Shown piece after piece: positions 14,200-60,185 of a DNA stretch of 64,000 nt. The stretch is from positions 323,546 to 387,545 of the forward strand of contig JANQAO010000001.1 of assembly GCA_030386295.1 (NCBI GenBank), read 5' to 3'. Below the pieces are notes generated by a model, which was not told where the DNA came from, ran no database searches, and saw only the letters and a program-made list of their open reading frames with translations. Source of the stretch: Candidatus Persebacteraceae bacterium Df01 (GTDB taxonomy: Bacteria > Pseudomonadota > Gammaproteobacteria > Tethybacterales > Persebacteraceae). A program made the translations under genes and the position numbers. Every line of letters starts with the position of its first letter. The stretch's first letter is position 1.

Positions 14200-14233
14200 C
14201 CGAATAAATGTAATGCCAAGAGAGGAGAGATTT

Positions 14234-15562
14234 GTGGCAAAACAGATGATTCAGGAGAGAGTAATCGATCTGGCTCAGCAGGCTAAAAGCCGTGGTATTA
14301 AATATTTCTTAATTGGTTTTACTGATATGTTTGGCGTTGCGCGCTCCAAGCTTGCGCCAGCGGCCGCCATTGCCGATATGCAAAAAAATGGAGCTGGTTT
14401 TGCAGGCTTTGCTAGTTGGCTGGATATGACACCGGCTCATCCCGATATGTTTGCCCTTCCCGATCCAGCCTCATTGATTCAGCTGCCGTGGAAACCCGAG
14501 GTTGGCTGGCTGGCGGCGGATTTGTGGATGGCAGGAAGAGAAGTTGTCGCCTCGCCGCGGGTAATGCTTAAAAACCAGCTCAAGCGTGCTGCTGCCAAAA
14601 ATTGGCGTCCTATGAGCGGAGTGGAATGTGAATATTTTCTTGTCAATGCTGATGGTACGGCGCTTGCTGATTCTCGCGACACACAGAAAAAACCCTGTTA
14701 CGACTCGTCAGCGTTGATGCGGCGTTATGACGTGATTAAAGAAATATGTGATGCCATGCTGGATTTGGGCTGGGGTCCCTACCAAAACGATCACGAGGAC
14801 GCTAACGGTCAATTTGAGATGAATTGGGATTATGATGATGCTCTAGTGACCGCTGACCGGCACGTTTTTTTTAAATTTATGGTGAAATCTGTCGCCGAAA
14901 ATCATGGTTTACGTGCAACCTTTATGCCTAAACCTTTTATTAATCTTACCGGCAACGGTTGCCACTGTCATATGTCGGTGTGGGACAAAAAAGGCAAAAT
15001 CAATCATTTTGCTGGTTCTGACGAAGAGGGATTGTCACCGATGGCTTATCAATTTTTGGGCGGTGTGATGCACTCGGCTTCAGCTTTGTGTGGTTGGTTC
15101 AATCCGACGGTGAATTCATACAAACGTATTAATGCGCCGCGTACGTTATCTGGTGCTACGTGGGCGCCGACTAGTATTACTTATAGCGGCAACAATCGTA
15201 CTCACATGGTACGCATTCCCGACGCTGGGCGTTTTGAATTTCGCCTGATGGATGGTGCTGTCAATCCGTATCTTCTCCAAGCGGGACTCATTGCTGCGGG
15301 GTTAGACGGCGTGGAAAATGACCGCAATCCAGGCAAAAAACTTAATATTAATATGTATACCGAAGGACACAAAGTAAAAAATGCTCGCCAATTACCATTA
15401 AATTTGCTGGACGCCTTGCGCAACTTAAAACAAAGCAAGGTTTTGAGCAGTGCTTTTAATAAAGACGTAATTGCTAGTTATGTCAAACTCAAAATGGAAG
15501 AGTGGAATGAATACAACCGCCACTTGTCCGACTGGGAACGACAGAACACACTAGATTGTTAA
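14234..15562 (+). CDS. gmaS: Gamma-glutamylmethylamide synthetase
   Basis: Start taken as GTG 14234 because AGGAGAG (14223-14229) precedes it well; an ATG at 14213 in frame has no ribosome site. The protein has 442 residues of the glutamine synthetase fold and reads closely like GmaS of methylamine users: KYFLIGFTDMFGVARSKL, GAGFAGFASWLDMTPAHPD, WGPYQNDHEDANGQFEMNW, GNGCHCHMSVWD and RFEFRLMDGAVNPYLLQAG. GmaS joins glutamate and methylamine with ATP to give gamma-glutamylmethylamide. Context decides against ordinary glutamine synthetase: amt follows by 34 bases, then the three split glutamate synthase-like genes mgsABC. The family and pathway are established in methylotrophs and marine bacteria using methylamine as nitrogen source; activity here is inferred. 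Confidence 0.9.
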   Translation: MAKQMIQERVIDLAQQAKSRGIKYFLIGFTDMFGVARSKLAPAAAIADMQKNGAGFAGFASWLDMTPAHPDMFALPDPASLIQLPWKPEVGWLAADLWMAGREVVASPRVMLKNQLKRAAAKNWRPMSGVECEYFLVNADGTALADSRDTQKKPCYDSSALMRRYDVIKEICDAMLDLGWGPYQNDHEDANGQFEMNWDYDDALVTADRHVFFKFMVKSVAENHGLRATFMPKPFINLTGNGCHCHMSVWDKKGKINHFAGSDEEGLSPMAYQFLGGVMHSASALCGWFNPTVNSYKRINAPRTLSGATWAPTSITYSGNNRTHMVRIPDAGRFEFRLMDGAVNPYLLQAGLIAAGLDGVENDRNPGKKLNINMYTEGHKVKNARQLPLNLLDALRNLKQSKVLSSAFNKDVIASYVKLKMEEWNEYNRHLSDWERQNTLDC

Positions 15563-15596: not shown

Positions 15597-16955
15597 ATGG
15601 ATTCTAATATTAATGCACTGACAACCGTATTTACCGAGTTTTATTACTGGGTGACGGTGGTTTTTATGTTTTTAATTCATGTCGGATTTTGCATGTACGA
15701 GGTGGGAGCATCACGGCGGCGTAATCACGCGCACACTTTGATGAAAAACACCATGCTTATTCCACTCATAACTATTACCTTTTTCTTCTTTGGTTGGTGG
15801 ATATACTGGGCTTTTCCTAATGGTCCTTTTATTACCGGTGGCGTGGAGTGGGATGCGGCGGCAGCAAATGCGCCGTGGTCTGAGAACATGTCCGCCCACC
15901 TGGGTGACCGTATTACGGGCGTGTTTTGGGCAGCATTTTTGCTGTTTTCGTGGACAGCAGCATCCATTGTTTCCGGTTCTGTAATTGAACGTATTCGATC
16001 TGGTGCCTTTTGGATTTTAGCGGTGCTCATTGGCTCTGTGATGTGGATTATTGATGCCGCATGGGGCTGGAGTGCTAACGGTTGGATGGTTAAACTTCTA
16101 GGCTATCACGATGCTTATGCGTCTGGAGTGATTCACGCCATTGCCGGTGGTTTTGCACTGGGCGTGCTAGTTGTACTTGGTCCGCGTATCGGGAAATTTA
16201 GCGCCGATGGGACACCGCGCGATATTCCGCCACATAATACTTGGTTCGCCACGGTGGGACTATTTTTGATTTACACTGGTTTTTGGGGATTTTATGCAGC
16301 GTGTAATGTACCGCTTATCTCTCCCGAAGGCATTGGTGGTGAAGTTACGGGTACAACGTGGACAGCAACCAATATCTATTTAGCACCAACTACTTTGGGC
16401 GCGATTACTTTCAATTTTCTCATGTCGTTGTCGGGTGGTTTGATGGCTGCTTATTGCGTTTCCAAGGGCGATGCTTTTTGGACTTATTCCGGCGGACTTG
16501 CCGGCGTTATTACTGCATCCGCTGGCAACGACTTGTATCATCCCATTCAAGCGATGATTGTCGCCGCCATTGGTGTGGTTATCGCCTACAAGATGCACTA
16601 TTGGGTGGAGCGCAAATACAAAATAGATGATGCGGTCGGTGCTGTAGCGGTACACGGTTATGCCGGATTCATCGGATTGATCATCGCCGGCTTTTTGCTT
16701 TGGGGGGCGCCGTCCTCACCTTATGAGGGCTATGCTACGATTAATCCTTTGGGGCAATTTTTGGGCGCCATTATTATGTTTTTTGTGCTGGGCTTCTTAC
16801 CTGCTTTTATAGTGTCTAAAATATTAGCTTCTTTTGGAATGTTGCGGGTGCCGCGTGAAATTGAAATCATGGGACTTGATTTTTCCTCAGAAGCGGCTTA
16901 TCAGCAGGCAGTGGACGAAATTAAGCGAGCTGATCACGACGAAGCAGCAAAATAA
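15597..16955 (+). CDS. amt: Ammonium/methylammonium transporter, Amt family
   Basis: 452 residues with about eleven membrane helices. The twin pore histidines are visible in SGVIHAIAGG and AVAVHGYAG, and the aromatic, glycine-rich pore helices (WSANGWMV, GFWGFYAACN, MSLSGGLMAAY) are in place. Amt proteins conduct ammonium and also methylammonium. Lying inside the gmaS-mgs operon, it is best read as the uptake route for methylamine or a route to recover ammonia. A ribosome site GAGAGAGG precedes the ATG. The C-terminal tail (about 30 residues, VPREIEIMGLDF...) is cytoplasmic in the family, the part that contacts PII proteins; no glnK is present here. Confidence 0.93.
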   Translation: MDSNINALTTVFTEFYYWVTVVFMFLIHVGFCMYEVGASRRRNHAHTLMKNTMLIPLITITFFFFGWWIYWAFPNGPFITGGVEWDAAAANAPWSENMSAHLGDRITGVFWAAFLLFSWTAASIVSGSVIERIRSGAFWILAVLIGSVMWIIDAAWGWSANGWMVKLLGYHDAYASGVIHAIAGGFALGVLVVLGPRIGKFSADGTPRDIPPHNTWFATVGLFLIYTGFWGFYAACNVPLISPEGIGGEVTGTTWTATNIYLAPTTLGAITFNFLMSLSGGLMAAYCVSKGDAFWTYSGGLAGVITASAGNDLYHPIQAMIVAAIGVVIAYKMHYWVERKYKIDDAVGAVAVHGYAGFIGLIIAGFLLWGAPSSPYEGYATINPLGQFLGAIIMFFVLGFLPAFIVSKILASFGMLRVPREIEIMGLDFSSEAAYQQAVDEIKRADHDEAAK

Positions 16956-17267: not shown

Positions 17268-18170
17268 ATGTGCGGTATTGTTGGGTTATTCTTAAAAAAC
17301 GAAACATGGCGACAACAGCTGGGTGCACTATTCTCACCTATGCTAATTGAAATGACTGATCGCGGCCCCGATAGTGCTGGTGTAGCGGTGTATCATGCCC
17401 ACACAGCAGATGGCGGTAAAGTTACTTGCGTCCACCCGGATGCGGCTTTTGATTGGGCTGTGTTAGTCGCCCGTGCGCAAGCGCAAATCGGTGCCGAAAT
17501 TGTCGTGCGACAGCGTGGCTCTCACACGGTATTAAAAACGGCAGATGCTGTAGCATTGGCGGATTTTTTACGCGCAGATTGCCCGCAAATTGACATTGTA
17601 GGCGTTGGCGATGTAATAGAAATTTACAAAGAGACCGGCTTGCCGGCGCACGTATGCGAGTCTTTTGGTGTTGCCGGCATGGCGGGAACACACGCCATTG
17701 GTCACACTCGCATGGCGACGGAAAGTGCCGTTACTACTGCTGGCTCACATCCGTTTTCTACCGGTTATGATTTGTGTTTGGTGCATAACGGATCGCTCTC
17801 TAATCATAACCGATTACGCGAAAAATTAACCGCGCATGAAGGCGTTGTTTTTAAAACAGAAAATGACACCGAAGTGGGTGCTGCTTATATCGCCAGCCGA
17901 CTGCAGGCAGGAAGAAGCTTGCATCAGGCACTGGAAGACAGCTTAAATGATTTGGATGGCTTTTTTACTTTTGTCGCTGGCACCGGCGGCGGCTTTGCCG
18001 TTTTGCGTGATCCCATTGCCTGTAAGCCCGCAGTGCTCGCCGAAACAGACGATTATGTGGCTTTTGGTTCCGAATTTCGCGCGCTTTCTAGCTTACCAAA
18101 TATCGATAGTGCCAAGCTGTGGGAGCCAGAACCGGCAGTGGTGTACAGTTGGGAAGGACAAGCAGCGTGA
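17268..18170 (+). CDS. mgsA: N-methylglutamate synthase subunit A (class II glutamine amidotransferase domain)
   Basis: 300 residues, a stand-alone class II amidotransferase domain as in the N-terminus of glutamate synthase. Cys2 in MCGIVGLF is the nucleophile after Met removal; MTDRGPDSAGVAVY, IGHTRMATESAV, HPFSTGYDLCLVHNGSLSNHN and ENDTEVGAAYI are the other active-site stretches. In the proposed mechanism it would cleave gamma-glutamylmethylamide and release methylamine to MgsC. The neighbours mgsB and mgsC supply the other glutamate synthase modules. A glutamate synthase-like role independent of methylamine is the alternative, but gmaS in the same operon argues against it. Confidence 0.88.
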   Translation: MCGIVGLFLKNETWRQQLGALFSPMLIEMTDRGPDSAGVAVYHAHTADGGKVTCVHPDAAFDWAVLVARAQAQIGAEIVVRQRGSHTVLKTADAVALADFLRADCPQIDIVGVGDVIEIYKETGLPAHVCESFGVAGMAGTHAIGHTRMATESAVTTAGSHPFSTGYDLCLVHNGSLSNHNRLREKLTAHEGVVFKTENDTEVGAAYIASRLQAGRSLHQALEDSLNDLDGFFTFVAGTGGGFAVLRDPIACKPAVLAETDDYVAFGSEFRALSSLPNIDSAKLWEPEPAVVYSWEGQAA

Positions 18171-18856
18171 ACGCTACGTCGGGAATATTGGAGCTGGAAC
18201 TGGATGATTTATCCGCCATTAATCGTCGGTTACAAGCCCCAGAAAAGGTGACTGATTTTCGTATTTTGCGTCCGCAAGGCGCTCATACGCTGGCGTGTGG
18301 TTTGAATGCGCCGTTGACTGTGCGCATTGCGGGGCACGTTGGTTATTATTGCGCTGGTATGAACAAACAAGCAACCGTCATCATTGAGGGTAATGCAGGC
18401 GCCGGTGTTGCCGAAAATATGATGTCGGGAACCGTGCGGGTGACGGGCGATGCAAGCCAATCGGCAGGTGCGACCGCGCACGGCGGTTTGTTGGTGGTAG
18501 AAGGTAATGCGGCGGCACGATGTGGTATTTCGCTGAAAGGGGCGGATATTGTGGTGTTTGGCGATGTCGGGCACATGAGTATGTTTATGGCGCAGCGCGG
18601 ACGACTGGTGGTGTTTGGCGATGCTGGTGAAGCACTGGGTGATTCTATTTACGAAGCGCGCATTTACGTGCGTGGCAAGGCTGATAAGTTGGGGGCGGAT
18701 TGTGTGCAAAAAGACATGCGAGATGAACACCGAGATGAATTGCGTGAGTTGCTTGCCGCCGCAGGAGCACCAGAAGTTAATCTTGATGATTTTAAACGCT
18801 ATGGTTCGGTGCGCCAACTATATCATTTCAATATTGATAACGCAGGCGCATACTAA
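18167..18856 (+). CDS. mgsB: N-methylglutamate synthase subunit B (GXGXG domain)
   Basis: Start chosen as GTG 18167, which overlaps the mgsA stop (GTGA); an earlier in-frame start would lie inside mgsA. The 229-residue product is the glutamate synthase C-terminal GXGXG beta-helix domain: repeats such as RIAGHVGYYCAGMN, VIIEGNAGAGVAENM, TVRVTGDASQSAG and LVVFGDAGEALGDSIYEA show the regular glycine spacing. In glutamate synthase this domain is structural and links the amidotransferase and synthase sites. The stop is followed six bases later by mgsC. Confidence 0.87.
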   Translation: MNATSGILELELDDLSAINRRLQAPEKVTDFRILRPQGAHTLACGLNAPLTVRIAGHVGYYCAGMNKQATVIIEGNAGAGVAENMMSGTVRVTGDASQSAGATAHGGLLVVEGNAAARCGISLKGADIVVFGDVGHMSMFMAQRGRLVVFGDAGEALGDSIYEARIYVRGKADKLGADCVQKDMRDEHRDELRELLAAAGAPEVNLDDFKRYGSVRQLYHFNIDNAGAY

Positions 18857-18862
18857 AATAAT

Positions 18863-20173
18863 ATGTCAGATAATTGGTCACTTAAAGAATCGCACACATT
18901 TAATCGTCGAATTATTGACGACATTCGGCGGGCGGCAAAAACAGGGTTGTATCGCATTCGCGGTGGCGGGGCAAAACGGGCAGTTCCATCTTTTGATGAT
19001 TTAGTGTTTTTGGGTGCATCTATGTCGCGCTATCCGTTGGAAGGATATCGTGAGCATTGCGGTACTGAAGTCACGTTGGGAGCGCGCTACGCCAAAAAGC
19101 CGGTGCGCTTAAAAATCCCAATTACTATCGCCGGCATGAGTTTTGGCTCTCTATCAGCCAACGCCAAAGAAGCATTGGGGCGTGGTGCTAGCGCGATGGG
19201 TACTTCTACCACCACCGGCGATGGTGGTATGACTACGGAAGAGCGAGAGCATTCACAAATATTGGTGTATCAATATTTACCGTCGCGCTACGGCATGAAT
19301 CCAGATGACTTGCGCCGTGCCGATGCTATTGAGGTAGTTGTGGGTCAAGGTGCCAAGCCCGGTGGGGGTGGCATGTTGCTGGGGCAAAAAATTAGCGCGC
19401 GCGTGGCACAAATGCGTGACTTGCCGGAAGGTATTGACCAACGTTCGGCTTGCCGTCATCCTGATTGGACCGGACCGGACGATTTGGCTATTAAAATTAG
19501 AGAATTGCGTGAGATTACTGCGTGGGAAAAACCGATTTATGTTAAGTGTGGCGCGTCCCGCCCCTATTACGACACGCTACTGGCGGTCAAAGCGGGCGCT
19601 GACGTGGTAGTGATGGACGGTATGCAAGGTGGCACAGCGGCAACACAGGAAGTGTTTATAGAGCACGTGGGGATTCCCACTTTGGCGGCAGTACGGCAGG
19701 CAGTAGCGGCGCTCAAAGAAGCGAACATGCATCGCACGGTACAATTGGTTGTCGCTGGCGGCATTCGTTCCGGTTCCGATGTGGCTAAAGCACTGGCAAT
19801 GGGAGCAGATGCAGTTTCTGTCGGTACAGCGGCACTTATTGCTATTGGTGACAATGCGCCACAGTATGATGAAGAATATCAGGCTTTGGGGTCGGCGGCT
19901 GGGTTTTGGGAAGATTATCAAGACGGCACAGATCCTGCCGGTATTACTACGCAGGATGCTGAGTTGATGAAGCGAGTTAATCCCGAAGCGGCAGGGCGAC
20001 GACTGGCTAACTATTTACGCGTGTTGACAATGGAAGCACAAACGTTAGCACGCGCCAACGGTAAATCACATGTACACAATTTAGAGCCCGAAGATTTAGC
20101 AGCAGTTACTGTTGAGGCGGCGGCGATGGCCGGTGTGCCGCTGGCGGGGACTAATTGGGTACCGGGCAGTTAG
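18863..20173 (+). CDS. mgsC: N-methylglutamate synthase subunit C (FMN-binding glutamate synthase domain)
   Basis: 436 residues, the FMN-binding TIM-barrel domain of glutamate synthase. Seen are ITIAGMSFGSLSANAKEALG, STTTGDGGMTTEERE, the GQGAKPGGGGMLLGQKI loop, VVMDGMQGGTAATQEV, and VAGGIRSGSDVAKALAMGAD at the FMN phosphate. In bacterial and ferredoxin glutamate synthases a cysteine trio near the end of the barrel holds a [3Fe-4S] cluster; here that place reads GSAAGFWEDYQDGTDPAGITTQ with no cysteine, and none occurs after about residue 230. The enzyme therefore probably lacks the cluster, which fits the redox-neutral exchange proposed for N-methylglutamate synthase. Last protein gene of the operon. 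Confidence 0.88.
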   Translation: MSDNWSLKESHTFNRRIIDDIRRAAKTGLYRIRGGGAKRAVPSFDDLVFLGASMSRYPLEGYREHCGTEVTLGARYAKKPVRLKIPITIAGMSFGSLSANAKEALGRGASAMGTSTTTGDGGMTTEEREHSQILVYQYLPSRYGMNPDDLRRADAIEVVVGQGAKPGGGGMLLGQKISARVAQMRDLPEGIDQRSACRHPDWTGPDDLAIKIRELREITAWEKPIYVKCGASRPYYDTLLAVKAGADVVVMDGMQGGTAATQEVFIEHVGIPTLAAVRQAVAALKEANMHRTVQLVVAGGIRSGSDVAKALAMGADAVSVGTAALIAIGDNAPQYDEEYQALGSAAGFWEDYQDGTDPAGITTQDAELMKRVNPEAAGRRLANYLRVLTMEAQTLARANGKSHVHNLEPEDLAAVTVEAAAMAGVPLAGTNWVPGS

Positions 20174-40707: not shown

Positions 40708-43587
40708 ATGAAAAAAATTCGCGTTGTTGGAGCCCGTGCCCATAATCTAAAAAATGTCACCGTTGAGCTGCCGCGCGACTGCATGATTGTCGTTACCGGT
40801 GTTTCCGGATCTGGGAAATCTTCGCTGGCTTTTGACACCATTTTTGCTGAAGGACAGAGGCGTTATGTGGAGTCGCTATCGGCTTATGCGCGGCAATTTT
40901 TGCAAGTGATGGACAAGCCCGACATGGACGCCATTGAGGGGCTATCGCCTACTATTTCCATTGACCAAAAGAGCGCTTCTCACAACCCTCGTTCAACCGT
41001 CGGTACTATAACCGAAATTCATGATTATCTACGTTTGCTGTACGCCCGTATCGGTAAGCCGCACTGTCCACGCCACGGCATTGCTTTGCAAGCTCAAACC
41101 ACTGCTCGTGTGGTGGATTTTTTGTGCGCTACATTGACAAACAAGCGGCTGGCAATTTTGTCACCACTTATTATTGACCGTCGCGGTGAGCACTTGGAAA
41201 TCTTTCGCGACATTGCCGCCAAAGGTTTTTCGCGTGTGCGTGTGGATGGTCGTATTTATGACTTAGAAGAAATTCCCACGCTGGCAAAGACTGTCAAGCA
41301 TACTATTGAGGTTGTAGTGGACCGACTGCGTCCAGACGCTGACAACCAACAACGGTTGGTAGAATCAGTAGAAACCGAGGCGCGTTTCGGTGATGGTCGG
41401 TTACATGTTTTGGAAATGGAAGACGGTGGTATTCATACCTTTTCTACCCGCCATGCTTGCCCCAAATGCGGCTATGCACCGCCCGAATTGGAACCTAAAC
41501 TATTTTCTTTTAACAATCCTAAAAGCGCCTGTTCGCAATGTGATGGACTAGGGACAATCTCTACGTTTGACCCTGCGTTAGTAGTAGAAAACGGCGATTT
41601 GTCTCTTGCTGCCGGCGCGATTCGCGGTTGGGATCGCCGCAATCCGTACTTGTTCACTCTGATGCAGGCGGTTGCCGACAAGTACAATTTTGATATACAA
41701 ATGCCGTTTAACGACTTGTCCGCCAAAGTGCGTCAAATCATACTTTACGGTAGTGGCAAGGAAAATGTGCCCACTGTTTATCGATTCAAAAGTGGCGAGA
41801 GTGCCCGCAAAAATCGTGAACATCGACGCAACAAACCTTTTGAGGGAATTATTCCTAACATGGAACGGCGGTGGCGTGATACCGATTCTTATCACGTGCG
41901 TGAGGAGTTTGCTCGCTATATTTCCGCTCGTCGTTGTGATTCTTGCAAGGGACACCGTCTGTCACCTGACGCCTTGGCGGTAAAAATCGGCGAGTGTGGC
42001 ATTCACGAAATTTCGACCATGCCGCTCAATGAACTGGCGGCATTTTTTGACGCGCTGCAGTTAGATAAAACCGACGCTGCTATCGCCGAACGAGTAGTGC
42101 GCGAGATTCGTGAGCGCGTGAGTTTCATGGTTAATGTCGGACTGGATTATCTGTCGCTCGCACGTGCTGCCAACACGTTATCCGGCGGCGAGGCACAACG
42201 TATTCGGCTGGCCAGCCAAGTAGGTTCAGGGCTCACCGGTGTAACTTATGTGTTGGATGAACCTTCCATTGGCCTACACCAGCACGATAACACTCGTTTA
42301 CTGCAAACATTGATGCGGTTACGCGATCTTAAAAACACGGTGATTGTCGTAGAGCACGATGAAGAAGCGATTCGCGCGGCGGATTATTTGGTGGACATGG
42401 GTCCACTAGCTGGTGTGCATGGTGGTGAGGTTGTTGCCGCTGGTTCGGTAGAAAAAATCATTCGGTGCAAACGATCGCTTACCGGACAATTTTTGAGTGG
42501 CGTGCGGCATATTGCTTTGCCCGCGCGCCGGCATTCTCCAAAAACGGAACTCACCGTGCGTGGTGCTAGTGGCAATAATCTCAAAGGTGGAAATTTCACT
42601 TTCCCATTGGGACTGTTGACGTGCGTAACCGGCGTTTCCGGTTCTGGTAAATCCACACTGGTGCGCGATATTTTAGTACGTGTTATGCGTAGGCATTTGC
42701 ACGGCAGCGGCGATGAACCACTTATGCACCGTGACATTACCAATATTAAACAGGTGGAAAAAATTGTGGTGGTAGACCAAAGTCCGATTGGGCGCACGCC
42801 GCGTTCTAATCCAGCCACCTACACCGGATTTTTTACAGCCATTCGCGACCTTTTTTCGGGACTGCCGCTGGCGCGTGAGCGTGGCTATGCAGTAGGGCGA
42901 TTTTCGTTCAATGTTGCTGGCGGGCGCTGTGAAAACTGTGAAGGTGATGGTGTTATGCGTATAGAAATGCATTTTCTCCCCGATGTTTTTGTTACTTGCG
43001 ATGTTTGTCAGGGACAGCGTTACAACCGCGAAACCTTAGAAGTCCGCTATCGAGGTAAAAACATTCATGACGTGTTAGATATGACGGTGGACGAAGGATT
43101 GGCTTTTTTCTCTAATGTGCCATCCGTTGCCCGTCGCTTGCAGACTTTGCATGACGTTGGGCTGAGCTATATCCGGTTGGGTCAGTCGGCAACTACATTG
43201 TCCGGCGGTGAGGCACAACGGGTTAAATTATCATTGGAATTGTCTAAGCGAGGCACAGGTAAGACGCTGTACGTATTGGATGAGCCTACTACGGGATTGC
43301 ATTTTTATGATGTGGATTTACTGCTCAAAACGTTGCATCGCTTGCGCGACGAAGGCAATACCGTGGTGGTGATAGAACACAATTTAGACGTGGTAAAAAC
43401 CGCTGATTGGATTTTGGATTTGGGTCCTAAAGGCGGTGCTGGCGGCGGTCGATTGATCGCTTCTGGTACGCCAGAACAAGTAGCGGATGTTAAAGAAAGC
43501 CTGACCGGAAAATATCTGAAGCCTATGCTCAAAACCCGCCGTAAAGCGGGGAAAGAAAAAATTATTAAAAAAACAGCTGGTATCTAA
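40708..43587 (+). CDS. uvrA: Excinuclease ABC subunit A
   Basis: 959 residues, slightly longer than E. coli UvrA (940). Two ABC ATPase modules: Walker [16 protein letters not shown] and [15 protein letters not shown]; signatures [16 protein letters not shown] and [16 protein letters not shown]; Walker [15 protein letters not shown] and [14 protein letters not shown]. Cysteine pairs for zinc modules are seen in CPKCGY...CSQCDGLG, and CENCEGDG...CDVCQGQR. UvrA finds bulky DNA damage and loads UvrB. The end overlaps choW tail to tail by four bases. The C-terminal tail is rich in Lys. Confidence 0.97.
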
Positions 43588-44447
43588 TTATTGCGCCGCG
43601 GTTGTCGCAACCGGCATGCCCTGTCCAATATGATGGCAATGATGACGATAATAATACCGCTTTCAAAACCTTTGCCGATATTGACTTGATTGAGTGCTCT
43701 AAGTATGGGCACTCCCAGTCCGCCGGCGCCAACCAAAGCGGCAATGACCACCATGGACAATGACAGCATGATTGCTTGCGTGAGTCCAGCCAACATTTGT
43801 GGCAATGCGTGTGGAAATTCTATTTTGACGAGTCGCTCCCAAGGTGAGCAGCCAAAGGCATCGCCGACTTCTAGCAGTATTTTGGGTGTTGAAGACACGC
43901 CCAAATGTGTCATGCGAATCGGTGCCGGCATGGCAAAAATTACTGTGGCAATAAGCCCTGGAACCGGTCCCAGACCAAATAAAATTAGCGCTGGGATTAA
44001 GTAAACAAAAGTGGGGATAGTCTGCATAAAATCTAATATCGGACGCAAAATTGCATACAACCAAGGTCTCCGCGCGGCGGCAACACCTAGCGGCACGCCG
44101 ACAGCCATGCAAATAAAAGCTGATGCCAAAACCAAGGCTAGAGTTTGTGTGGTTTCTTTCCAATAGCCTTGATTAACAATTAATAACATTCCCGCCACCA
44201 CAAAGAGCGTTAGTAACCAGCGGCGGTGTAATAAGTGCACCAGAATCGCAAGCAAAGTGATTAATGCTAACGGTGACGGCGTTTGGAGTAGCCACAAGAG
44301 CGCGTCAATGCCATGCTCCAAAGCAACGGCTAATGAGTCAAATAACGTGCCGGCGTTGTCAGTCAGCCAGTTGACGCCGGCTTTGGCACCGTCTCCCAGC
44401 GGTAGCTTGTAATCGGTTAGCCACCGCGCCGTGTTTTCTTCGGCCAT
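43584..44447 (-). CDS. choW: Choline/glycine betaine ABC transporter permease
   Basis: 287 residues with about seven membrane helices; the ABC permease EAA-type loop is visible as [26 protein letters not shown]. It belongs to the ProW/ChoW group and lies 30 bases after choX. The ATPase gene that normally follows (choV/proV) is absent: choW runs directly into the convergent end of uvrA. The transporter must borrow an ATPase encoded elsewhere. Confidence 0.85.
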
Positions 44448-44477
44448 AGCTTTTTCTCGACCGCTCGCTAATCGTTA

Positions 44478-45422
44478 TTATTTGATTTCTAGCGCGGTTT
44501 TTACTGCTGCCAAGCCGTCGTTACCGGTTATTGTTTTAACACCTTTTAGCCATCCATCCAACACATTAGGATTTTGTTGTAGCCAGTCGTGTGCGGCGGC
44601 ACGTGGTTCTTGACCGTGATCCAAAATCGCTCCCATAATAGCCCCTTCCATGGTTAGCGTAAATTGCAGGTTATTTAGCAACACGCCAACATTGGGGCAT
44701 TCTTTTACATAGTCTTTGCGGGTATTGGTGAACACCGAGGCGCCGCCGTAATTTGGACCAAAATAATCATCGCCGCCGGATAAATAAACGAGTTCAAAAT
44801 TATTATTCATTGGGTGTGGTGCCCAGCCCAAAAAGACGATGTCTTGCTTGTTTTTAGCGGCACGTGCTACTTGCGCTAGCATACCTTGCTCCGATGATTC
44901 CACCAGTTCAAAGTCACCAAGGCTAAATGCGTCTTTTTCTATCATATCCAAAATCAGGCGATTACCGTCGTTGCCTGGTTCAATGCCATAAATTTTTCCG
45001 TCCATCGACTCTTTGAAATCTGAGATGTTGGCAAAATCGTTTAACCCTTTGGCGGCGGTATATGCGGGTACGGCAAAGGTATATTTCGCACCTTCTAAAT
45101 TAGCAAGCGGTAGTACGTCAACTGCGCCTTTGTCACGGTAGGGCGCAAGGTCGCCTTCCATAGTGGGCATCCAATTACCTAAAAATATGTCTATGTCGGA
45201 GTTTTCCAAGCCTTTGTAGGTAACTGGTACCGACAGCACCTTAACGTCAGTTTGATAACCTAGCCCTTCTAGAACTTCTGTGGTAAGTGCAGTGGTGGCG
45301 GTGATATCTGTCCAGCCAACATCGGAAAAGCGTACTGTGCTGCAATCGTCAGCCAATACCGGTTGATAAAGCAATGCCGCCGCTGCCGTGCAGATAATAA
45401 ATTTGTTAAAAATTGTTTTCAT
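44478..45422 (-). CDS. choX: Choline-binding periplasmic protein ChoX
   Basis: 314 residues with a signal peptide (ending near QPVLADD). The mature N-terminus CSTVRFSDVGWTDITATTA and LGNWMPTMEGDLAPY are strikingly like rhizobial ChoX. The aromatic box known for ChoX can be matched: Trp in VGWTD, Trp in GNWMP, Tyr in VPAYTA, Trp in LGWAPHP. It is preceded by AGGAGAG. It captures choline (possibly betaine) for ChoW. Only the permease gene accompanies it. Confidence 0.85.
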   Translation of the reverse strand: MKTIFNKFIICTAAAALLYQPVLADDCSTVRFSDVGWTDITATTALTTEVLEGLGYQTDVKVLSVPVTYKGLENSDIDIFLGNWMPTMEGDLAPYRDKGAVDVLPLANLEGAKYTFAVPAYTAAKGLNDFANISDFKESMDGKIYGIEPGNDGNRLILDMIEKDAFSLGDFELVESSEQGMLAQVARAAKNKQDIVFLGWAPHPMNNNFELVYLSGGDDYFGPNYGGASVFTNTRKDYVKECPNVGVLLNNLQFTLTMEGAIMGAILDHGQEPRAAAHDWLQQNPNVLDGWLKGVKTITGNDGLAAVKTALEIK

Positions 45423-48614: not shown

Positions 48615-49352
48615 TCAGAATTGACACAATTTTGGGAGAGTCGATCCGCTAAGCTTTGCTAAGTGCCAGATTAAAACTAAATTACTGGACAATACAGTTG
48701 TTTTGAATTGTTTTTGACAGAACTGAATAACGTCCATACATTGCAGATTAGTGCAAGAAATAAAAACGACATCGACCGCTGTTTTACGTGTGAGTTCCTC
48801 CACTGCCCTGCAGATGCTTGGCGCGTCAATAGCAGCAACTTTTTTGTCGCTGTGCTGGTTAAAGGTACCTGCGGCAACAATCTCTAAACCGCTTGTGGTC
48901 AGTGCTTGGCACATCATCAATGAAATATTTTCGGTATAGGGTGACAGATAAGCAATGCGTTTTGCTTGCAAGTGTGCCAACGCCGCTTTGGCTGCCGTTA
49001 ATGGGTTGGTTACGAAAGCGGTGTTAACGGCGTTTTTTATTAACCGCTCAACCTCCGCCTCACCGATGACGGCTGCCGCCGACGTGCAGGCGTAGCCAAT
49101 AGCATCAAACGCCTTTCCCTCCGGAAATAATGCTAATGCTTCGGTCAGATGTGTTTTCATTGCCACCAGATTGTCCACAGAGACAATGTCGTTAACGGCA
49201 ATACGAGTGTGTAGTAAATTCACGGTTGGGTTGGCGGAAAATAATTGCCGACAGTCGCTCTCTACTGTTTCGTCTGTCTGCAGGACGATTAATCCCAATA
49301 ATCGTCGCTGCGTTTCTGTCAGGCGATAAGGTAAATTTTTCATCTTTAACAT
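48615..49352 (-). CDS. Aspartate/glutamate racemase-maleate isomerase superfamily protein
   Basis: 245 residues. The two catalytic cysteine motifs of the superfamily are present: GYACTSAAAVIG and FISCTNLQCMD. The late SSNLVLIWHLAKLSG is typical of the arylmalonate decarboxylase/maleate isomerase/EutA side of the family and not of glutamate racemase MurI. Its ATG (49352) overlaps the stop of the M24 gene (TAATG); a second ATG at 49343 is possible. Third gene of a coupled operon with a diaminopropionate ammonia-lyase-like enzyme. Racemase, isomerase or decarboxylase cannot be told apart by eye. Confidence 0.75.
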   Translation of the reverse strand: MLKMKNLPYRLTETQRRLLGLIVLQTDETVESDCRQLFSANPTVNLLHTRIAVNDIVSVDNLVAMKTHLTEALALFPEGKAFDAIGYACTSAAAVIGEAEVERLIKNAVNTAFVTNPLTAAKAALAHLQAKRIAYLSPYTENISLMMCQALTTSGLEIVAAGTFNQHSDKKVAAIDAPSICRAVEELTRKTAVDVVFISCTNLQCMDVIQFCQKQFKTTVLSSNLVLIWHLAKLSGSTLPKLCQF

Positions 49353-50521
49353 TAAATTGACTCGATAGATGAGATAAGCGGCATTTTTTTGCTGGCACGG
49401 TGAGTCAGTAACCTCGCTGTTGTATCAGTAATGACAATATTTTCTTCATGCACCATCGTCATCCCATCAGCATAAATCAGCGATGGCTCTATTGCGATAA
49501 CCATTCCTGGGCGTAGTGGTGTTTTATCCCATTCAACGAGGGATGGTGTTTCTGTTAATTCTATGCCGACGCCGTGTCCGTAACGTCCAGCACTAGCGGT
49601 GTCATAGCCAGCGACGCGAATGACGTCGTTCATGGCAAAAAACAAATCACAACATCGCGTACTGGGTTTGGCGGCGGCGAGTACGGCTTCTGTCGCCCGC
49701 CACAGCGTATCATAGGCTTGGCGGCTTTTGGTACTGATGCGTCCTAAAGCGTAATTGCGATTGAAATCACAATAATAGCCATCTATCACACAGCCGGCAT
49801 CCAACATAAAAATATCGCCATCTTTTAGCAGCGTGTCATCGGGAGGCGAGATAATGTCCACATAGCCACCAGCGCCGTTGCCGCAAGCAAGATAATTAAC
49901 GTCATCCACGCCGGCTAACAAGCATTCTATTTTGAACCGCCGGTGTGCCTCACGTGCTGTCATACCGATTTGTAGCCATTCGGGAACCTGTTCAAACACG
50001 GTGCTTACCACGTCGCAAACATGCTCAATTTTTTCAATTTCCGCTACTGATTTGCACTGCCTAACAGCATGAATCGCAACGGTAACATCTATAAAAATAC
50101 TGTCTGGAATTTTTTGCTGCAGTTGCTGAAAATCTTGTTGCGGCATTCGTAAATGGCTTTGTCGGCCGCTCATCATACCGATACGCAAAGCGTTTTGTTG
50201 TTGTAACTGCTTTGCAAGCAAAGAAATGCCCTCATCGTCAGCATGTGGTGCCACCCAAGTAAAAATAGATTCGACATGGCAATTTTTCATCAAGGCTTCA
50301 CCGATTGATGGAATTACGGCAATTGGTTTGCCGGTGCGCGGTAGTAACAAAAACCAAGGGCGGGTAGGAGAGCGCCAGAAGGGGGTATAAAAACCGCTGA
50401 AATAAAACAATTCAGCTTCAGTTGTTAGTAATAAAACGTCTACGTCGGTAGTCGTCATAAATTCTTGTGCGGCGGCGCAGCGCCGCCGGTACTCTTGTTC
50501 GGTGAAACCGCGTTTGAACAC
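49352..50521 (-). CDS. M24-family metallopeptidase (Xaa-Pro aminopeptidase/creatinase fold)
   Basis: 389 residues, GTG start sharing a base with the previous stop. An N-terminal creatinase-like domain (to about residue 150) is followed by the pita-bread domain. All five usual metal ligands can be matched: Asp in FMLDAG, Asp in YCDFNR, His in YGHGVG, Glu in AIEPS and Glu in VHEENIVIT. A metal-dependent peptidase or amidohydrolase is therefore more likely than a metal-free creatinase or ectoine hydrolase. Placed between the lyase and racemase genes, it may release the amino acid they use. Confidence 0.8.
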   Translation of the reverse strand: MFKRGFTEQEYRRRCAAAQEFMTTTDVDVLLLTTEAELFYFSGFYTPFWRSPTRPWFLLLPRTGKPIAVIPSIGEALMKNCHVESIFTWVAPHADDEGISLLAKQLQQQNALRIGMMSGRQSHLRMPQQDFQQLQQKIPDSIFIDVTVAIHAVRQCKSVAEIEKIEHVCDVVSTVFEQVPEWLQIGMTAREAHRRFKIECLLAGVDDVNYLACGNGAGGYVDIISPPDDTLLKDGDIFMLDAGCVIDGYYCDFNRNYALGRISTKSRQAYDTLWRATEAVLAAAKPSTRCCDLFFAMNDVIRVAGYDTASAGRYGHGVGIELTETPSLVEWDKTPLRPGMVIAIEPSLIYADGMTMVHEENIVITDTTARLLTHRASKKMPLISSIESI

Positions 50522-51651
50522 TATTGGGTTAATTGCCGATAAGCGCTTTCATCAGTTATGCCTTCGGTGCCGAATAATAAGACAACAGAATCCTCATTCA
50601 AGGCAAACTCGCGTTTTTCATCCCAGCTAAGTTGGCTCATTGCTTGTAAAGCGGTTAACCCACCGGCTGAACATTCACCACCAACAAGCGGTGTGCCATA
50701 GTCACCAGCTGCCAGTCGGCGCATAGTTGTTCCGATGGCGGCGTCATCTATGGAAATAAAATCACTTGTGGTAGCAGCCGCAATTTCCCACGCCAGAAGT
50801 GACGGACAGCCACAAGACAAACCCGCCATTAGTGTTTCCTGTTGAATATCAACCGTTGTAAGTGCCCGATTTTTGGCGCTTTGCAATAAACAGTCAGCAT
50901 AAACGGATTCCACAGCAATAAGGCGTGGAAACGGTTGCACAAAACGCGCAAGACAAGCAGCAACGGCCGCCAGTAATCCACCAACACCGGCGGGAACAAT
51001 AACATGGGTTGGTTTCTGCGCATCTAGTTGCTCCAGCAATTCGCGAACTAAAACGGAGTACCCTGCCATAATTAACGTGGGGACGGCAGTATAGCCTTCC
51101 CACGAAGTGTCAGAAACAATTTGCCAATCGTTGTCGGCAGCGAAGCGAGCGCATTCGTTGACGGAATCATCATAATTGCCATCCGTGCGGATGATTTCTG
51201 CGCCATAAGCGGCAATTGCCGCTGTTCGTTCCTTGCTGACGTGCCGATGAACAAAAATTTTAGCTTTGCATCCAGCACGAGCCGCTCCCCAAGCGACAGA
51301 ACGACCATGATTGCCGTCAGTGGCAGTGGTAACAGTGTAGTCAGTTCCGCCAGTTTGACGGTGTTGTTGGACGAGCTTTTCTACCGCATAGGCACCGCCC
51401 AGTGCTTTAAACGATGACAAATCAAACCGAAGAGACTCGTCTTTGTAATAAACTTTGCGCAAGCCGAATTGAGCTGCGGTATTGTCTAATGCACACAACG
51501 GTGTCGGGTGATAATTTTCCCACTGGCAAATGGTTGCGTATGCTTCATCCATTTGCGCGTCGGATAGGATACTATTAATAATCGGTAACACTTGTGCAAT
51601 ATCAATGTTTTGATGAAGGCAACCATGAATTTTATAAAGTAAATTGTTCAT
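50521..51651 (-). CDS. dpaL: Diaminopropionate ammonia-lyase-like PLP enzyme
   Basis: 376 residues from ATG 51651; a TTG at 51699 is an alternative, and neither has a clear ribosome site. It reads closely like E. coli YgeX: YHPTPLCALDNTAAQFGL, YYKDESLRFDLSSFKALGG (PLP lysine in SFK), TTATDGNHGRSVAWGAARAG, NYDDSVNECARFA, and SDTSWEGYTAVPTLIMAGY. That family turns 2,3-diaminopropionate into pyruvate and two ammonia. The PLP phosphate loop PAGVGGLLAAV is intact. It heads a three-gene unit. Threonine dehydratase or the hydroxyectoine enzyme EutB are alternatives, but the KDES..F and DGNHGR context favours the lyase. Confidence 0.78.
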   Translation of the reverse strand: MNNLLYKIHGCLHQNIDIAQVLPIINSILSDAQMDEAYATICQWENYHPTPLCALDNTAAQFGLRKVYYKDESLRFDLSSFKALGGAYAVEKLVQQHRQTGGTDYTVTTATDGNHGRSVAWGAARAGCKAKIFVHRHVSKERTAAIAAYGAEIIRTDGNYDDSVNECARFAADNDWQIVSDTSWEGYTAVPTLIMAGYSVLVRELLEQLDAQKPTHVIVPAGVGGLLAAVAACLARFVQPFPRLIAVESVYADCLLQSAKNRALTTVDIQQETLMAGLSCGCPSLLAWEIAAATTSDFISIDDAAIGTTMRRLAAGDYGTPLVGGECSAGGLTALQAMSQLSWDEKREFALNEDSVVLLFGTEGITDESAYRQLTQ

Positions 51652-51935
51652 AATATTTTTGTTTTTGAATTTAGCACGACTGTCAGGATAAATCTCCAAT
51701 TGAGAATTGACCGTATTCTATAACTATCTCCTAAATTAATGCTACGACACGAATTGTTGACTTTGCACATGTTTTTGTCAAAGCCGAAAAGTAGAAATGT
51801 GGTATTTTGATTGCGCCATGCTTTTGGGTGTTATGATTTATTATGTGGAAGGATTCCGCATAATCATGAAAATAGTTATCAGCATAGTATAAAATTAGAA
51901 ACCGCATTTTTTAGGTGCGGGGAACAAAAAATATC

Positions 51936-56551: not shown

Positions 56552-58903
56552 ATGTTAGAAAAAACCGTCACGCCTCGTTTTATACGAGAGTCACAACGTG
56601 TGTATCATCCTGGAATTACGGCGTTACCAACCGGCACGGAGCGTTATGAAGTTGCCGGTGCTGGATTGTTGGTATTACGTTTGTTTAGTGGCGATACGTT
56701 GCGGCTGGTAGATGTTGAAGGTGGTCAGCCAGCGGAAATTGTGCCCTTTCGTCCACAAGGAGACTGTGATTCGGGCTTGCTTGACACCGCAGCTAATGGT
56801 CGTGCCGAGGGGCTAAAAAAAATGCTTGCGTATGGTAATCGCTTACAGACTGTGTTGGATAAAACCGGCATTAATTTAAATAGTGCTGTTTCTATTGATT
56901 GCTTTGGCAAAGAAAGTCCAGCCGGTGTCGAAGCTGTTTTTGTTGCGAGTAATGACGCGTTTGTTGTTATCGCTGCGCCGGGGGATAACATGATAGTGGA
57001 TGAATCTCATCCACCTACGCCTTTGCTGGCGTTTGTTGAGCGCGCTCACACTGCTGCTGAAAATATTTCTCCGCCGTTGCCCGAACCTTTAGCGGAGCCA
57101 AAGCTGGATTGCCGCGTGCACAGCGCTACTGCCAAGGCTTACCGCGTTAATGCGGGCGATTGGATTCAGCTTATTGATGTGGAAGGTCGCCAATGCGCTG
57201 ATTTTCAAGCGTTCTCTCTGGCAGCATTGGAAAAAGGTAAGGAGCGCTGTTTGGATTTGACTGTCAGCCGGACGCTTATGAGGCGCGCATATCCGACGCC
57301 GGGAGTGCATGCCAAATATTATGATTACAATTTTGAGCCGCTGGTAGAAATTGTGCAGGACACTTGCAACCGCCATGATGCTTTTGGTATCGCTTGTTGT
57401 GCTAAATATTATGAAGATATGGGCTATCCTGGGCACGTTAATTGTTCTGATAATTTTAATACTGAGCTTGAGCCTTATGGAGTGGAGCCGCGGCAAGGCT
57501 GGATGGCGATGAATTTCTTTTTTAATACGAATATAGACTGCGGCGAAAATTTTTGTTCGGATGAGCCGTGGTCGCGTCCCGGTGACTATGTTTTACTGCG
57601 GGCATTGACTGACTTGGTGTGCGTGTCATCTGCTTGCCCGGATGATATAGATCCAGCCAACGGCTGGAATCCGACAGACATACACCTTCGTACTTATGAT
57701 AAATCGTTGCGTGCTCGCCGTTCGGTGTGGTTTCGCAAGCGTCCCGATTCGGAGGCGGAAATGACAAAAGAGACTGGATTTCATCCTCGTACGGCAGCAC
57801 TGACGAGGGAATTTGTTGAAAGTAATGGCTATTGGCTTCCGGCGGGTTTTTCTGCTCGTGGGGCGCTGGACGAATATTGGGCTTGCCGTGAAAAGGCCGT
57901 GGCCGTTGACCTATCGGTATTGCGTAAATTTGAAATTGTTGGTCCGGATGCGGAAGCACTGCTGCAGTACTGCCTGACGCGTAACATGCGGCGGCTTGCT
58001 GTCGGTCAAGTGGTGTACACCGCTATGTGTTATGACACCGGAACGATGATAGATGATGGTACGGTATTTCGTTTAGGCGACGATGTGTTTCGCTGGGTTG
58101 GAGGTAATGATTATGGCGGTGAGTGGTTGCGCAAACAAGCAGCAAAATTGGAACTGAATGTTTTGGTTAAAACTTCTACTGACCATTTGCACAATTTATC
58201 GGTACAGGGGCCGTTAAGCCGAGATATTTTGCGTGACATCATATGGACGCATCCGCATCAACCAGCGTTGACGGAATTAACATGGTTTCGTTTTACTATA
58301 GGGCGGTTGGGTGATGAGCGCGGATTGCCGGTGTTGGTATCGCGTACGGGTTATACTGGTGAGTTGGGGTATGAGATTTTCTGTCACCCAACAGACGCGC
58401 CGGCGGTGTGGGATAAAGTTATGGCAGCCGGAGCACCACACGGTATCGTGCCGATGGGATTGACGGCGCTAGATATGGTTCGTGTGGAGGCGGGATTGAT
58501 TTTCGCTGGCCATGAATTTGATGACCAGACGGATCCTTATGAAGCTGGAATCGGTTTTGCAGTACCTGCGCAAAAAAATGACGATTTTATTGGTCGCGAT
58601 GCTTTGTTGCGCCGCTGTGAAAATCCGCAACGCGTACTTGTTGGATTGGAGTTGGCGGGAGAAGAATTGGCATTGCACGGTGATTGTGTGCGCGTCGGTC
58701 GCCAACAGGTGGGCATTGTTACTAGTGCCGTGCGCTCGCCGTTGTTGGGTAAAAATTTGGCATTGTGCCGTATCGCCATCGAGTATGCGGACATTGGTAC
58801 TCAAGTAGAAGTCGGTAAATTAGACGGTCATCAAAAACGCATTCCGGCTGTGGTGGTTAAATTTCCTTTTTATGATCCGGAAAAGAAAAGACCGCGTGCT
58901 TAG
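56552..58903 (+). CDS. DUF1989-DUF1989-GcvT fusion protein (aminomethyltransferase-like)
   Basis: 783 residues. Residues about 1-185 and 190-390 are two DUF1989-like copies, each with a VDVEG/IDVEGRQ strand: LRLVDVEGGQPAEI in the first and IQLIDVEGRQCADFQAF in the second. The second also has ERCLDLTVSRTLMR, DTCNRHDAFG and CSDNFNTEL, which fit an active copy; the first lacks the Cys and looks degenerate. From about 420 to the end is a GcvT-type folate-binding domain (VLVSRTGYTGELGYEIF, ALDMVRVEAGLIFAGHEFDD, YEAGIGFAV). DUF1989 proteins include urea carboxylase-linked and carboxyguanidine deiminase subunits; GcvT proteins move one-carbon units to tetrahydrofolate. A folate-linked demethylation of a nitrogen compound is inference. 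Confidence 0.78.
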   Translation: MLEKTVTPRFIRESQRVYHPGITALPTGTERYEVAGAGLLVLRLFSGDTLRLVDVEGGQPAEIVPFRPQGDCDSGLLDTAANGRAEGLKKMLAYGNRLQTVLDKTGINLNSAVSIDCFGKESPAGVEAVFVASNDAFVVIAAPGDNMIVDESHPPTPLLAFVERAHTAAENISPPLPEPLAEPKLDCRVHSATAKAYRVNAGDWIQLIDVEGRQCADFQAFSLAALEKGKERCLDLTVSRTLMRRAYPTPGVHAKYYDYNFEPLVEIVQDTCNRHDAFGIACCAKYYEDMGYPGHVNCSDNFNTELEPYGVEPRQGWMAMNFFFNTNIDCGENFCSDEPWSRPGDYVLLRALTDLVCVSSACPDDIDPANGWNPTDIHLRTYDKSLRARRSVWFRKRPDSEAEMTKETGFHPRTAALTREFVESNGYWLPAGFSARGALDEYWACREKAVAVDLSVLRKFEIVGPDAEALLQYCLTRNMRRLAVGQVVYTAMCYDTGTMIDDGTVFRLGDDVFRWVGGNDYGGEWLRKQAAKLELNVLVKTSTDHLHNLSVQGPLSRDILRDIIWTHPHQPALTELTWFRFTIGRLGDERGLPVLVSRTGYTGELGYEIFCHPTDAPAVWDKVMAAGAPHGIVPMGLTALDMVRVEAGLIFAGHEFDDQTDPYEAGIGFAVPAQKNDDFIGRDALLRRCENPQRVLVGLELAGEELALHGDCVRVGRQQVGIVTSAVRSPLLGKNLALCRIAIEYADIGTQVEVGKLDGHQKRIPAVVVKFPFYDPEKKRPRA

Positions 58904-59000: not shown

Positions 59001-60185
59001 ATGAAAATCACTGACGCTAAAACATTTGTTGTTGCAAATCCGCCACCGTCAAGGGGAGGAAGCTATTGGGTATTTGTCAAACTCACTACCGACAACGGTA
59101 TCAGCGGTGTCGGCGAATTGTACGGTGCACCATTTCATCCGCAGGCATTGGAAGCAATGATTGCCGATGTTTGTGAACGTCATGTATTTGGTTCTGATCC
59201 ATTTGCCACTGAACGACTGTACCGTATTGTGTATTCGCGTAATTACACGCAACGTCCGGACGCGTCGTTGGTTGCTGTATTGAGTGCGGTGGAGACTGCC
59301 TGTTGGGACATAGTTGGTAAAGCGCTGGAACAACCGGTATGTCGATTGCTGGGAGGGCCAGTGCGCGAACGGCTGCGTAGCTATTCTTATCTTTATCCTG
59401 AAGACGGCGATACCGGCTGCGTGTACACTGATTCTGATTTAGCTGCCGAACGAGCGACGGCATATGTCAAGCACGGTTTTACCGCTGTCAAATTTGACCC
59501 GATTGATACTTATAGTGCTTTTGATCCGCGCCAGTTGTCATTGGCAGAACTCAGTCGCGCTGAAACGATAGTGCGAAAAATGCGTGAGGCAGTGGGCGAT
59601 TCTTGCGATTTACTTATTGGGACGCATGGACAAATGACACCGGCAGCAGCGCTGAGATTGGCGCGCCGGCTGGAGCCATATGATCCGCTATGGCTGGAAG
59701 AACCAGTGCCTCCAGAAAACCCTACTGCCATGGCAAAAGTAGCGCAGGCGACACGTATTCCTATTGCTACTGGTGAGCGTCTTTGCACTAAACAAGAGTT
59801 TGCCCGTCTGCTGGAAGCTGGGGGTGCAGCTATTTTGCAGCCGGCGTTGGGGCGCATGGGTGGTATCGGAGAAATGAAAAAAGTTGCCGCTTTGGCCGAA
59901 ACCTACTATACGCAATTGGCACCACACTGTTATTGTGGTCCCATAGAAGCGGCGGCAAATATTCACTTGGCCGCTGCGATACCTAATTTTCTTATATTAG
60001 AAAGTATTCATACATTTGGTGGGTTCCATGCCGATATTCTTAGTGTTCCATTGCAGTGGGAAGATGGTTATGTTACCGTTCCTACCGCACCCGGCTTGGG
60101 AGTAGAACTGAACGAAAGTGTTGCCAATGCGCATCCTTATAATGATGATGCACTGCACCTTACGCCTTGCAATACACCCGATTAA
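59001..60185 (+). CDS. Enolase-superfamily protein (mandelate racemase/galactonate dehydratase-like)
   Basis: Start at ATG 59001 (an earlier frame from 58947 lacks family sequence); 394 residues. N-terminal capping domain, then the barrel: AVKFDPID, LWLEEPVPPENP (Glu metal ligand), IPIATGERLCTKQ (Glu ligand) and LAPHCYCGPIEAAAN (His). Compared by eye with galactonate dehydratase, the first ligand Asp in VDFHGR is Gly here (LIGTHGQ), and the QPD of the His-Asp pair is QPA. It may use a shifted ligand set or a different reaction. It follows the DUF1989-GcvT gene by 97 bases and could share its pathway. Confidence 0.8.
   Translation: MKITDAKTFVVANPPPSRGGSYWVFVKLTTDNGISGVGELYGAPFHPQALEAMIADVCERHVFGSDPFATERLYRIVYSRNYTQRPDASLVAVLSAVETACWDIVGKALEQPVCRLLGGPVRERLRSYSYLYPEDGDTGCVYTDSDLAAERATAYVKHGFTAVKFDPIDTYSAFDPRQLSLAELSRAETIVRKMREAVGDSCDLLIGTHGQMTPAAALRLARRLEPYDPLWLEEPVPPENPTAMAKVAQATRIPIATGERLCTKQEFARLLEAGGAAILQPALGRMGGIGEMKKVAALAETYYTQLAPHCYCGPIEAAANIHLAAAIPNFLILESIHTFGGFHADILSVPLQWEDGYVTVPTAPGLGVELNESVANAHPYNDDALHLTPCNTPD

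Follow-up and report, generated by a model that had tools for sequence, protein, structure and literature searches.

A predicted trimethylamine N-oxide demethylase in the genome of Candidatus Persebacteraceae bacterium Df01

The trimethylamine N-oxide (TMAO) demethylase Tdm of Methylocella silvestris converts TMAO, a marine osmolyte, to dimethylamine and formaldehyde in a 1:1 ratio with Zn and Fe(II), and is active with or without oxygen (PMC12560246). Tetrahydrofolate (THF) is not needed by this enzyme, which releases free formaldehyde, with THF slightly lowering that release, and activity requires the assembled protein at full length (PMC12560246). A three-domain architecture has already been published for it, including an N-terminal DUF1989-like domain that InterPro misses (PMC12560246).

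Family identity and domain architecture

The stretch of DNA analysed here, referred to as the window (64,000 nucleotides of contig JANQAO010000001.1), contains an unbroken frame running from an ATG at 56552 to a stop codon at 58901–58903 and encoding 783 residues (Table 1). The product is almost certainly a TMAO demethylase (Tdm), predicted from its sequence to convert TMAO to dimethylamine and formaldehyde. It passed the NCBIfam equivalog NF053776 with 1189.2 bits (cut-off 1100) over residues 23–783, and the closest solved structure was PDB 9q59, "trimethylamine N-oxide demethylase", at 962 bits, with the runner-up protein scoring 194. Identity to 9q59 was 56.4% over 753 aligned positions, the N-terminal domain being lower (39%) than DUF1989 (62%) and the GcvT part (60%). 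Family and protein searches across the genome returned it as the sole Tdm-length match and the single Pfam-level DUF1989 match. This assignment draws on family identity, residues, neighbourhood and pathway genes, while the reaction and metals are taken from published work on orthologues, and we infer that the window copy has the same activity as the published Tdm.

Pfam analysis of the protein detected DUF1989 at residues 189–356 (147 bits, cut-off 27), GCV_T at residues 411–670 (222 bits) and GCV_T_C at residues 694–775 (70 bits), each well above its cut-off, with no match for the first DUF1989 copy. When the N-terminal parts of 34 homologues were compared with their second domains by profile–profile alignment (hhalign), the probability came out at 96–97% (single-comparison P of 6e-9 to 8e-11). 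Residues 1–183 were modelled with AlphaFold2 (pLDDT 83), and in Foldseek the only matches of the model with E≤0.001 were the DUF1989 crystal structures 3di4 and 3siy. As the TM scores to these were modest (0.45–0.48), the N-terminal domain is regarded as a distant DUF1989 copy; the three zinc cysteines sit in the second copy and are absent from the first. The original prediction of one chain joining two DUF1989 copies, the first degenerate, to a GcvT-like domain is thus upheld. The fusion had been presented as unexplained, but it is not a new one: the architecture is that of known Tdm (NF053776; PMC12560246), and the protein is an ordinary copy of a known, structurally solved enzyme.

Table 1. 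Positions within the window of the tdm gene, its domains and metal-site codons, and methylamine-related genes.
Feature	Position	Strand	Basis
tdm, trimethylamine N-oxide demethylase, 783 aa	56552..58903	+	Frame, NF053776, 9q59 identity
N-terminal DUF1989-like domain without zinc cysteines, ~residues 29–169	56636..57058	+	hhalign, AlphaFold2, Foldseek, PMC12560246
DUF1989 catalytic domain (predicted), Pfam 189–356 extended to ~residue 400	57116..57751	+	Pfam, metal ligands
GcvT folate-binding domain PF01571	57782..58561	+	Pfam
GcvT C-terminal barrel PF08669	58631..58876	+	Pfam
Metal-site codons C282 (57395–57397), H295 (57434–57436), C298 (57443–57445)	57395..57445	+	35/35 homologues
Metal-site codons C362 (57635–57637), D365 (57644–57646)	57635..57646	+	C362 35/35, D365 34/35
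gmaS-type gamma-glutamylmethylamide synthetase (type III glutamine synthetase-like), for a step further down this pathway	14213..15562	+	TIGR03105, 655 bits (cut-off 469.6)
Amt ammonium transporter, methylamine cluster	15597..16955	+	Subfamily match below curated cut-off
mgsABC-like N-methylglutamate synthase genes (17268–18170, 18119–18856, 18863–20173)	17268..20173	+	Domain content, co-location

Genomic neighbourhood and pathway genes

To place the gene in context, 70 loci with a Tdm homologue were surveyed, from records titled as alphaproteobacteria, gammaproteobacteria and mycobacteria. Tmm was found within 6 kb of the homologue in 49 of these, subunits of the TMAO transporter (TmoX/V/W) in 9–11 and subunits of N-methylglutamate synthase (Mgs) in 10–16, all of which are lower bounds given flanks of at most 6 kb and several short contigs; many of the loci come from close relatives within Rhizobium, which makes them non-independent. 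The survey supports the methylamine direction of the original prediction and not its guanidine or urea direction. The tdm gene of the window stands alone, its neighbours being genes for a TPR protein, an enolase-superfamily dehydratase and a HemJ-like protein, none of them pathway genes. An operon with the downstream enolase-superfamily gene was considered and rejected, as that gene lies near tdm in none of the 70 homologous loci. Nothing was recognised in the gap between tdm and the likely ATG start of this gene at 59001.

Elsewhere in the genome, on a different contig from tdm, Tmm is encoded (822 bits, cut-off 675) along with TmoX (399 bits to Ruegeria pomeroyi TmoX, 4xz6), which TmoV and TmoW adjoin. 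All seven residues listed for the TMAO pocket of the R. pomeroyi protein (PMC8918994) are kept in this TmoX, namely W55, W102, F106, E131, W177, F220 and W222, with positions read by hand from the alignment to 4xz6. The window itself carries a gmaS-type gene, 72% identical to the gmaS-like gene of a relative's tdm cluster, followed by amt and mgsABC-like genes, the last named from their domain content and from their position alongside gmaS and tdm in relatives. Judged from these sequences, the bacterium carries most of the remaining known TMAO pathway, in agreement with the earlier view of a methylamine-using organism. TMAO would be supplied by Tmm oxidation of trimethylamine or by TmoXVW, and methylamine would be handled by GmaS/Mgs.

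A branched-chain-amino-acid-type ABC transporter (L105:8478–13222, contig C3) was found directly after tmm (L105:7024–8364); its binding-protein gene appears to be followed by two permease and two ATPase genes. In seven other loci (L002, L005, L009, L010, L011, L013 and L053), similar binding proteins are encoded close to tmm or tdm, and trimethylamine or a related amine is a possible substrate of this transporter. Within the window, a choline ABC transporter permease and binding protein (43584–45422, minus strand) scored over the cut-offs of TIGR03416 and TIGR03414. Three adjacent genes on the same strand (48615–51699) resemble those of ectoine or amino-acid catabolism. One encodes an EutA-like protein that scored below cut-off, and the others a protein with the M24 peptidase/creatinase fold and a member of the diaminopropionate ammonia-lyase family.

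Metal site, folate site and alternative readings

Residue numbers of the M. silvestris enzyme were set on the solved Tdm sequence by an offset matching eight of nine named residues, the misfit being A344 of PMC12560246, which lands on a proline. With this offset, the Zn ligands C263, C279 and C343 correspond to C282, C298 and C362 of the window protein, the proposed Fe ligands H276 and D346 to H295 and D365, and D198, known from mutagenesis, to D217. Five of these residues (C282, H295, C298, C362 and D217) were invariant in 35 of 35 homologues and D365 was present in 34. The predicted metal binding of the DUF1989 part is consistent with this conservation. In the proposed mechanism, the second DUF1989 domain would bind Zn via C282, C298 and C362 and Fe(II) probably via H295 and D365, with D217 important, and would convert TMAO to dimethylamine and formaldehyde with no added O2 needed. 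The N-terminal copy, having no zinc site, probably has a role in folding or in contacts within the oligomer. The assembled enzyme would require the GcvT part, which may also trap some formaldehyde on THF.

How far folate takes part was weighed against an account in which the fold is that of Tdm but the true product is methylene-THF, GcvT capturing the formaldehyde made by DUF1989 by channelling with obligatory folate use. The GcvT domain is complete, D501, D502 and E608 are invariant across 35 homologues, and the small effect of THF on formaldehyde release (PMC12560246) is also in its favour. Against it, the characterised enzyme demethylates without THF, and the THF-contact residues Y101 and R223 of Escherichia coli GcvT are replaced by F506 and L637 here (mapping per PMC12560246). 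These are identical to F487 and L618 of M. silvestris Tdm, which are said to break the THF contacts (PMC12560246). Obligatory channelling is considered unlikely. Since the published Tdm needs no THF and the same contact residues are substituted here, folate transfer would be secondary at most. The passing of carbon to THF, as originally predicted, could by this analogy be no more than a side activity.

The substrate first envisaged was an N-methylated guanidino or ureido compound that would be both deiminated and demethylated. Matches to the urea amidolyase associated families do show a distant relationship of DUF1989, but the scores, 83.9 bits for TIGR03424 and 56.4 bits for TIGR03425, fall far short of the curated cut-offs (284.7 and 205.95) and lie below the Tdm match, and it is TMA/TMAO genes that make up the neighbourhood in homologous loci. 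Demethylation of an N-methylated compound is the part of that proposal that pointed the right way, while action on a guanidine or ureido compound is hardly credible. Scarcely better placed is a Tdm paralogue whose preference among tertiary-amine N-oxides has shifted. A divergent copy does exist in a family relative (L112:35–2242; 931 bits, below the cut-off; sharing 42% of residues with the window protein), but the window protein exceeds the equivalog cut-off and is the only match of Tdm length in its genome, where Tmm and TmoXVW are also encoded. The preferred reading remains that of a TMAO demethylase. It should also be noted that the relative (G002) has two Tdm-like genes on one contig (L112:35–2242 and L113:7396–9765), and that the divergent product keeps the metal residues and may act on another amine oxide.

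Fate of dimethylamine and comparison with known systems

The next step of the pathway was sought with PF11927, which we take to be the Pfam family containing DmmA, a dimethylamine monooxygenase subunit. Neither the Df01 genome nor its two family relatives had a match to PF11927, which was found in two of the five other genomes searched. As the Df01 genome is 98% complete and the link of PF11927 to DmmA is presumed, a recognisable dimethylamine monooxygenase subunit is likely, though not proven, to be absent. The same dimethylamine step is missing in SAR11 (PMC5520151; PMC8918994). The dimethylamine formed by Tdm may perhaps be excreted or demethylated by another enzyme, for example a further GcvT- or DAO-type flavoprotein, and this suggestion is a tentative one.

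Nine GcvT-domain proteins were counted in the 1.53 Mb genome; several have frames of 814–934 residues, the size of dimethylglycine dehydrogenase or sarcosine oxidase fusions, which suggests heavy use of N-methyl compounds. In G002, also without a PF11927 match, tdm is followed by genes for a flavoprotein of the DAO family and a protein resembling glutamine amidotransferases (L113:5325–7381); the flavoprotein (L113:6059–7381) is a candidate enzyme for the dimethylamine step that is missing. Its relatives in the Df01 genome reach only 27–29% identity, and no counterpart was assigned as a dimethylamine oxidase. The gene described here adds one more bacterium to those with a predicted ability to demethylate TMAO. 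Of more use is the prospect of dimethylamine being produced in the absence of a recognised Dmm, in a compact genome with these GcvT-domain candidates.

In comparison with Tdm of M. silvestris BL2 (NF053776; structures 9q59, 9q5l and 9q5a), the window protein has the same three-domain order and a similar length, and shares the metal-site residues and the substituted THF-site residues. It differs in its N-terminal domain, which is less conserved than the other domains, and in the location of its gene outside a TMA/TMAO cluster. The C-terminal fold is like that of GcvT aminomethyltransferase and dimethylglycine oxidase (194 bits to 1yx2, 118 to 1pj5). Unlike these, the protein would have no glycine cleavage role, its THF contacts are changed and it is fused to DUF1989; the aminomethyltransferase model TIGR00528 was not reached (211 bits, cut-off 235.85). 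With the urea amidolyase associated proteins UAAP1 and UAAP2 and the structures 3oru, 3siy and 3di4 it has the DUF1989 fold in common, and the zinc cysteines are shared with the DUF1989 structures (as described for these in PMC12560246), whereas those proteins have no GcvT, far lower similarity and another neighbourhood.
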